Shown piece by piece: positions 10,861 through 59,674 of a stretch of 64,000 nt of DNA. The stretch's first letter is position 1. Every line of letters starts with the position of its first letter. Below the pieces are notes generated by a model. It was not told where the DNA came from, did not search any database, and saw only the letters and a program-made list of their open reading frames with translations. The position numbers were made by a program, and so were the translations under genes. This DNA is from Ignatzschineria larvae DSM 13226 (GTDB taxonomy: Bacteria; Pseudomonadota; Gammaproteobacteria; Cardiobacteriales; Wohlfahrtiimonadaceae): assembly GCF_038500265.1 (NCBI RefSeq), contig NZ_CP150637.1, positions 1,203,501 through 1,267,500 on the forward strand, in the 5' to 3' direction.

Positions 10861-10918
10861 ATACTTTTATAATAAATTGGTCTAAGAGAAATCATTATAA
10901 GTCGCTAGTATGGGATTT

Positions 10919-11084
10919 TATAGTAAATTTGGTTTAATAAAGATGTTTTTTAAACAGCTACTATGGGGGTTTAAAAGAAGGTAAAACCGTACTAAACAAC
11001 ACTTGCAGGATGCCGGATAGAACATCGCCCTTGCCTCGATCAGCTGATGCGCCGGCATTTCAATAATCCTTATTTTGAACCGAT
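10919..11084 (+). repeat. MITE-like repeat, copy B
   Basis: Left end TATAGTAAATTTGGTTTAAT, core TGCAGGATGCCGGATAGAAC and GATGCGCCGGCATTTCAATA, then TATTTTGAACCGAT. The last ten or so bases of the right inverted repeat are missing; the copy runs straight into a terminator stem. It lies between the convergent ends of the hydrolase gene and purH. Confidence 0.8.
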
Positions 11085-11117
11085 AAAAAACCGGAGAGCC
11101 ATTCCTCTCCGGTTTTT
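11085..11117. terminator. bidirectional terminator between hydrolase gene and purH
   Basis: A-run, then CCGGAGAG at 11091-11098 pairing with CTCTCCGG at 11105-11112, then TTTTT. The symmetric A-run and T-run allow it to act on both converging transcripts. Confidence 0.8.
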
Positions 11118-54316: not shown

Positions 54317-55061
54317 TTACTTGCTATCATTACTCTTAGATTTATTTTGCCTATTTTCTTTAGGAATCCATATAAGATCCTTTTTGGGACTTTGGAGTCC
54401 ATCGATATGTTCAAATAACTCTGGATTAATATCAATACCCATCGGATCTAATATAAAGTCAATCCCTTCCCTTCTAGCTAATTTTGCAGCAGGTACAAAA
54501 TCTGCATCGCCTGCAATCAAAATTATTTGTTTAACAAGCTTTTTCAAGGTTAATGATGATATATCGATTCCAATTTTCATATCGACACCTTTTTGTCTAA
54601 AAGATGGCTCTACGTCATTTTCAGTAATATCTTCTAGTTTTTTTCTTCCTTTTAAGAGATCTTGAATAACTCTATTTTTGTAGGTCCAACTAGTATTCGT
54701 AATTTTTCCAAATCGTAAAGCTACTTTTCTCAATTTTTTAAGCTCAATATGTAATGCTGTTCTAAATAGATATTCTTTAGTCTTGGTTGAATCATAAGCA
54801 ACTTTAGAAATTGGGTTATGTCCTTTATATTGAGCAGGAGGGCAATCATAAAAGAAAATTCTATAGAGATCTCTCTTTCTGCTATTTCCTTTCGCATTCA
54901 AATGAGACAAAGCATATTCAAAAATAAAAGTTGCTACTTTTTTAGAATCATAACAAATATCATCTACTTCTTGTTGGGATAATCCTTTAGGATATTTGTT
55001 GCTTAAATAACGAGATCTTTTTATCAAAAAAGCACCATCAATTCATATGGCTGTTGGCATT
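54317..55061 (-). pseudogene. NYN-domain nuclease gene with in-frame TGA at codon 6
   Basis: The natural start is ATG 55061, with GAGG 9 bases upstream. The reading is Met-Pro-Thr-Ala-Ile, then TGA (55044-55046), then IDGAFLIKRSRYLSNKYP and on to residue 236 counted from a TTG at 55027. IDGAFLIKR is the conserved first strand of NYN nucleases and carries a metal-binding Asp, so the frame is clearly continuous across the stop. The rest is intact: RIFFYDCPPAQ, RQKGVDMKIGIDI (Asp149, Asp155), IAGDADFVPAAKLA. Restart at TTG would lose the first Asp and has no ribosome-binding site. So it is a broken gene, a sequencing error or a recoded stop. Its base composition is more AT-rich than its neighbours, suggesting transfer. 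Confidence 0.8.
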
Positions 55062-55072
55062 TAATATTACCT

Positions 55073-55148
55073 CAAAAAAAACAAAAGCCCGGTGGTTCGG
55101 CACTACCTTAAATAGAGTGGTAGGCTTACTGCAACCGGGCATATAATG
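55073..55148 (-). ncRNA. candidate structured small RNA upstream of the NYN gene
   Basis: A compact unit on the minus strand: a promoter (55155-55183), then a hairpin with outer stem GCCCGGT/ACCGGGC (55087-55093 with 55134-55140) and inner stem CTACC/GGTAG (55103-55107 with 55119-55123), then TTTTGTTTTTTTT, then the NYN gene's ribosome-binding site. The two strands of the internal loop are alike (GCAGTAAGCC and GCCGAACC). Transcripts should end at the T-run or read through to the nuclease gene. Start and end are estimates. I do not know its family. Confidence 0.55.
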
Positions 55149-55154
55149 ATTTAT

Positions 55155-55183
55155 ATGTTACTTATCTACATAAATATTGTCAA
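55155..55183 (-). promoter_or_regulatory. promoter of the small RNA / NYN nuclease unit
   Basis: Read on the minus strand: TTGACA at 55178-55183, 17 bases, then TAACAT at 55155-55160. The -35 is consensus and the -10 matches 4 of 6. This is the best promoter in the region. Confidence 0.55.
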
Positions 55184-56435: not shown

Positions 56436-56445
56436 TTCAATTAGT

Positions 56446-56617
56446 TATGGTAAATTTGGTGTAAAAAATGGTTTTGAGCAGAGAATAAGTGGTTTTAAAA
56501 AAAGATAAAACCTTACACAACAACGCTTGCAAGATGCCGGATAGAATAGTTTCCTTGCCTCGATCAGCCGATGCGCCGGCATTTAAATAATGCTTATTAT
56601 GAACTGATCTTACTCTA
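56446..56617 (+). repeat. MITE-like repeat, copy F
   Basis: About 172 bp, from TATGGTAAATTTGGTGTAAA to GAACTGATCTTACTCTA, with core TTGCAAGATGCCGGATAGAA and GATGCGCCGGCATTTAAATA. The terminal inverted repeats carry a few substitutions. It lies between the convergent ends of endA and the copZ-like gene. Confidence 0.85.
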
Positions 56618-56743
56618 CATCAATTCACTTCCTCGAATAATCATTCAATAGCAAATAGCAGATCATCGAGAGGCCATCGTCGTGACAGGATGGCCTTTCC
56701 TTTTGATGAGGAATAGATTCCATTCCTCTACTTGTCAATTCGG

Positions 56744-59462: not shown

Positions 59463-59630
59463 CAGATCAGTTCAAAATAAGCTTATTTAAATGCCGGCGC
59501 ATCGGTTGTACAAAACAAGGAAGCTGTTCTATCCGGCACCTTGCAAGTGTTGTTGAGTAAGGTTTTATCTTCTTGTAAAATCAAATACTAGCTGCTTAAA
59601 AACCATTTTTCTTAAACCAACTTTACTATA
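59463..59630 (-). repeat. MITE-like repeat, copy G
   Basis: A reversed copy of about 168 bp. Read on the minus strand it starts TATAGTAAAGTTGGTTTAAG, has TGCAAGGTGCCGGATAGAAC and GATGCGCCGGCATTTAAATA, and ends AAGCTTATTTTGAACTGATC, its right inverted repeat eroded. It lies between the convergent ends of the FUSC-type gene and the BCCT gene. Confidence 0.85.
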
Positions 59631-59674
59631 ATTTAAGGGCCTGACATAGATAAGATGATTCTCTAAGAATAACA

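Follow-up and report, generated by a model that had tools for sequence, protein, structure and literature searches.

A covarying terminator hairpin directly upstream of NYN-domain nuclease genes: a candidate type III-like toxin–antitoxin unit in Ignatzschineria larvae and its relatives in several phyla

A small structured RNA, predicted to double as an intrinsic terminator, lies directly upstream of a gene for an NYN-domain nuclease in Ignatzschineria larvae and belongs to an RNA family conserved in front of NYN genes in several phyla. The window, i.e., the whole 64-kb stretch of I. larvae DNA that was analysed, probably contains a remnant of this unit, with the RNA intact and the nuclease gene interrupted. 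Because of the layout of the unit, the dependence of NYN genes on the RNA, the discrete transcript known from a relative and the mobile setting, we cautiously favour its interpretation as a type III-like module of an RNA antitoxin and an RNase toxin; the toxicity and its neutralisation are what we infer.

Organisation of the locus and the NYN protein

The features of the locus in the window are as follows:

55183–55155, minus strand: sigma-70-like promoter, TTGACA-17-TAACAT, with 10 of 12 consensus matches (promoter scan)
55142–55083, minus strand: structured RNA, the 60-nt family unit, also the intrinsic terminator (covariance model, folding)
55140–55087, minus strand: two-stem hairpin of 54 nt within the 60-nt unit
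55086–55074, minus strand: T-rich run of the terminator, ttttgtttttttt, 13 nt
55073–55070, minus strand: ribosome-binding site GAGG
55060–54317, minus strand: NYN-domain nuclease gene of 247 codons, start ATG 55060 (PF01936)
55045–55043, minus strand: in-frame TGA, codon 6 of the NYN frame, where relatives have a near-invariant leucine
54508–54500, minus strand: GDADF catalytic motif (D185, D187), invariant columns in 70 homologues

Promoter, two-stem hairpin, T-run, ribosome-binding site and NYN gene follow one another on the minus strand just where the first-pass annotation had placed them. The RNA is composed of an outer stem, an AGUAA/GAA internal loop and an inner stem with a bulged U. 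The promoter scan of the entire window showed no excess of sites (10 found vs. 8.4 in shuffled sequences); at homologous loci, a sigma-70-like site occupies the matching position in 21 of 68 cases vs. 1.3 in shuffles. The 60-nt unit alone folds at −21 kcal/mol (z = −2.5, with 2 of 200 shuffles equally stable), and single-sequence folding is weak evidence, because z drops to only −1.2 when the AT-rich flanks are included. An element of about 170 nt is repeated in the window (positions 1819–2001, 10918–11085, 56436–56620 and 59464–59633) and also found at related Ignatzschineria loci; it looks like a miniature mobile repeat or a repeat family.

The NYN frame starts at 55060 but is not open throughout. 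The TGA at codon 6 falls just before the first catalytic Asp and breaks the frame, and for this reason the mechanically listed ORF starts at TTG 55027 and comprises the open part only, without that residue. A recoded TGA was rejected, since a near-invariant sense codon occupies this site in relatives. Judging from the sequence, the NYN gene is probably dead in the window strain, and the window copy therefore probably does not constitute a working pair.

The read-through frame scored 32.5 bits against the Pfam NYN family PF01936 (cut-off 24.2), and D8, D160, D185, D187 and D205 are among the residues invariant in the 70 homologues. An AlphaFold model of the same frame reached a pLDDT of 92. Its best structural matches, found with VIA-align and far above others, were the NYN domain of MARF1 and VPA0982, with Z = 15.1 each; the plain Foldseek list held no significant match, the NYN domains being recovered in this second look, and a sequence search of the PDB gave no match. 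The Pfam score, the modelled fold and the conserved acids of the read-through frame thus assign the predicted protein to the NYN-domain RNase family. PHROGs assigned it to phrog_5783, a group of unknown function. The dN/dS value between the window frame and an intact relative with 85% identity was 0.046, which indicates that the protein has long been under selection and that the window stop is recent (or an error). As dN/dS stays low, the NYN lesions of Ignatzschineria could be recent or, in part, sequencing errors.

Conservation, covariation and classes of the RNA

The hairpin was found directly 5′ of NYN genes at about 40–57% protein identity on chromosomes, plasmids and prophages of Proteobacteria, Acidobacteria, Lentisphaerae, Bacteroidota, Deinococcota and Bacillota. 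With one genome scanned per species, 80 loci with NYN relatives were obtained, spanning beta-, gamma- and alphaproteobacteria, Acidobacteria, Lentisphaerae and Bacteroidota, and nearly all of them carry the hairpin and T-run just 5′ of the gene. Plasmid and phage relatives with the hairpin, some in a variant form, come from Thermus, Xanthomonas, Campylobacter, Moraxella, Dorea, Streptococcus, Lactococcus, Proteus and E. coli. Among 55 NYN prophage contigs, about 38 have the RNA immediately 5′ at the sensitivity of the covariance model, and several of the remaining ones have visible divergent hairpins. A recognised hairpin was absent from distant NYN relatives (31–39% identity).

The covariation alignment and the covariance model were built from 37 other loci, with the window left out. 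The covariation score of this alignment was 0.456 vs. 0.181 in shuffled controls and 0.06–0.16 in slid controls, and two-sided changes were present in 15 of the 17 base pairs. Searched with the model, both the 64-kb window (47.4 bits, E = 4 × 10−12) and the 2.56-Mb genome (E = 1.6 × 10−10) yielded the window hairpin as the only match. The window hairpin belongs to a conserved RNA family, and it is the conservation that is decisive; the first-pass annotation had staked its proposal on conservation of the leader before NYN genes, and the hairpin does recur across phyla with covariation. Sequence conservation is strongest in the internal loop, AGUA(A/C)GC facing GCCGA, which may resemble the loop-E/sarcin-ricin motif. 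The earlier description of this loop as “near-symmetric” was too simple, and is replaced by a conserved AGUA(A/C)/GA motif.

At the gathering score, no Rfam family, TEG147 (RF03535) included, matched anywhere in the window, and low-score matches there (snoRNA etc.) were rejected as chance. Firmicutes-type loci do match TEG147, with 80.9 bits at L165 and 56.3 bits at L150 (cut-off 56.1); both lie on prophage contigs, with the match directly 5′ of the NYN gene, and weaker matches occur in further loci. A pattern match at L186 is located inside coding sequence and was dismissed as fortuitous. On the basis of these sequence matches, TEG147 can be taken as the Bacillota branch of the RNA family, sharing the AGUA/GAA loop with the window RNA, whereas the Rfam model represents this branch and leaves the window and proteobacterial RNAs unmatched. 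Teg147 was identified by RNA-seq as a bona fide 60-nt sRNA of Staphylococcus aureus (PMC5826253), so that a relative of the window RNA is known as a discrete transcript. It sits on an S. aureus genomic island (PMC3053349), and the literature found names no partner protein or function for it.

In lambdoid coliphages, in Proteus and in some Pseudomonas, the NYN genes are preceded by a second class of hairpin, in which the apical loop CAAUUGUUA is conserved and which has covariation of its own. In the NYN tree, the second RNA class and the Bacillota class each correspond to one well-supported group, and the RNA classes track the NYN clades (co-diversification). At locus L143 (3943–3999), a second TEG147-like RNA stands directly 5′ of an apparent phage integrase gene, identified from the N-terminal sequence of its product, and not of an NYN gene.

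Genomic setting, asymmetric loss and possible roles of the RNA

The chromosomal neighbours of the RNA–NYN unit are diverse and not all are mobile or defence genes; no third conserved gene was found among the neighbours compared. On prophage contigs, the adjoining genes most often encode integrases and repressor-type HTH proteins. Lambdoid phages carry the unit between the repressor and N, a usual site of lysogen-expressed accessory genes. On a Thermus plasmid (L084), RNA and NYN have a large helicase-related gene on one side and an N-6 DNA methylase gene on the other, in a defence-like cluster. The prophage, plasmid and genomic-island copies support a mobile setting; the AT content, from which the first-pass annotation had argued for a mobile origin, does not provide the support.

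Linkage was examined in several genome sets. The RNA is present in six of the 274 genomes of a class sample, each time directly 5′ of an NYN gene (6/6), and the four additional NYN matches are all more distant. Of 299 Pseudomonas genomes, 16 carry the first RNA class, accompanied by an intact NYN gene in seven and without one in nine; the second class is likewise present in 16, ten of them with NYN. The RNA precedes 10 of 10 NYN genes of the second-class clade, and next to the six second-class RNAs without NYN the gene is deleted, shortened or filled with stops. For Pseudomonas as a whole, the RNA is found at 17/17 NYN genes, while intact NYN is missing at 15/32 RNAs, through about 10 independent events as judged from the junctions. 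RNA and NYN are present in essentially full length in 73 of 5,426 E. coli genomes, and about 200 more matched genomes, mostly O157 among the matches listed, keep the RNA with a truncated NYN. One Ignatzschineria species has an intact pair; at another RNA of this genus, with the same promoter, NYN is cleanly deleted; one species carries two orphan RNAs, located within or next to Mu-like prophage genes; and in I. ureiclastica the RNA is 100% identical to that of the window and the NYN frame shows independent disruptions.

Several individual loci can be added. Two near-identical 308-bp orphan-RNA segments (L187:8974–9281 and L188:9462–9768) occur in one Ignatzschineria genome, one of them behind MuA/MuB-like and gp16-like genes. 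At L189/L100 (G004), an orphan RNA with an intact promoter stands between Abi_2-like and DarG-like (macrodomain) genes, a repeat apparently taking the place of NYN. The RNA region is kept and the NYN frame is shortened or disrupted at L005, L008, L056, L172, L173 and L177; some loci with disrupted frames are from MAGs, where errors are possible, and the L177 match is near a contig end.

The type III-like reading is preferred because the retention of the RNA after NYN loss, the terminator and the location in lysogeny modules fit it best. The constitutive promoter would yield mostly a short, stable hairpin RNA of about 60–70 nt ending at its own terminator, and occasional read-through would supply the mRNA of the NYN RNase. 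The RNA would bind the nuclease via the conserved internal loop and keep it inactive. Loss of the RNA or a block of its synthesis (phage takeover, loss of the element) would free the nuclease to cut RNA, and prophages and plasmids may carry the unit as an immunity or maintenance gene.

The main rival is a cis-acting attenuator or autoregulatory leader, which we regard as unlikely. The hairpin would then be the leader terminator of the NYN mRNA only, and would be bound or cut, whether by the NYN protein itself or by a phage factor, to set expression; it would have no role in trans, and the orphans would be remnants. It is consistent with this that the RNA lies immediately 5′ and in the sense direction wherever NYN is intact, that it terminates in a U-run and that Rfam lists TEG147 under cis-reg. 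Target size also predicts more NYN than RNA losses, the gene having about 12 times the length of the RNA, and the conservation of orphan RNAs is not significant (variation of 3/59 in four Pseudomonas species with a shared deletion vs. about 13% in the flanks; p = 0.07–0.15). However, orphan RNAs with intact promoters are found in several genera, also beside Mu-like prophage genes, and the bona fide class in which Teg147 is placed was defined so as to exclude premature-termination transcripts (PMC5826253). Furthermore, no intact clade member without the RNA was seen, though loss of an attenuator should be tolerated.

The RNA might instead be a cofactor or specificity subunit that positions or activates the enzyme, hairpin and NYN forming an active ribonucleoprotein nuclease. 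The joint diversification of the RNA classes and the NYN clades agrees with such a role, as does the presence of the RNA wherever NYN is intact, but the RNA persists after NYN loss, its apical loop is short and lacks guide-like variability, and the terminator layout would give a large excess of RNA, all of which makes this reading improbable. Least probable are phage-borne decoys. Orphan copies, for instance those that another Ignatzschineria has in its Mu-like prophage region, would in this case silence a host NYN system as counter-defence. The pair of orphan RNAs in a single genome, one with a near-consensus promoter behind the MuA/MuB- and gp16-like genes, and an orphan TEG147-like RNA within a mobile element point this way, but the cases are few and could also be remnants of lost NYN genes.

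The type III-like reading can be widened to a pan-bacterial toxin–antitoxin class in which the terminator hairpin itself would be the antitoxin, holding the NYN RNase with its loop-E-like AGUA/GAA loop. This would explain Teg147 and make the phage and host orphan copies stand-alone antitoxins or decoys; we put it forward tentatively and with some doubt. No report of an NYN toxin–antitoxin or an NYN defence RNA was found in the literature searched. If the type III-like reading is true, a widespread RNA-antitoxin system that has a new toxin fold would join those known, and a known, unexplained S. aureus sRNA would gain a partner. It would also suggest an anti-phage or element-maintenance role for the phrog_5783 nucleases of lambdoid prophages, conjugative plasmids and genomic islands, and the many genomes that contain the RNA without the nuclease make a stand-alone antitoxin function directly testable.

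Comparison with known RNA–protein systems

The NYN RNases MARF1 and LabA-like VPA0982 have the same fold (Z = 15.1) and acidic active site as the modelled window protein, but a conserved partner RNA like the one described here is not known to us for either.

Type III toxin–antitoxin loci are ordered as promoter, RNA, intrinsic terminator and endoribonuclease gene (PMC5086642). The likeness to this order, pointed out in the first-pass annotation, was found again across phyla, the RNA–NYN loci having promoter, RNA, Rho-independent terminator and nuclease gene in the same succession as ToxIN, CptIN and TenpIN. The RNA–NYN unit is nevertheless not a member of these families. Its protein is an NYN/PIN-like nuclease with no homology to ToxN, CptN or TenpN, and a single RNA unit stands before each NYN gene, whereas their antitoxins are tandem repeats; the annotation was right in both respects in setting the single-hairpin RNA and the nuclease family apart from known type III systems. 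In addition, the NYN-linked RNA doubles as the terminator. It forms a covarying nested two-stem hairpin in which no pseudoknot, the fold of the ToxIN, CptIN and TenpIN antitoxins, is evident, though one may be present.

The nearest experimental precedent is AbiF/RCd22 of the Clostridioides difficile prophage phi027, where a terminated ncRNA on the 5′ side neutralises a toxic protein in trans and the protein is expressed by read-through of the terminator of this upstream ncRNA (PMC12373285). It differs in that the protein belongs to the Abi_2 family and not to NYN, and in that RCd22 has two abiF motifs apart from the terminator; the abiF motif (RF03085) had no match in Rfam scans of the NYN-linked RNA. 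The two systems have in common a structured ncRNA with a terminator placed directly before a protein gene, and a prophage setting.
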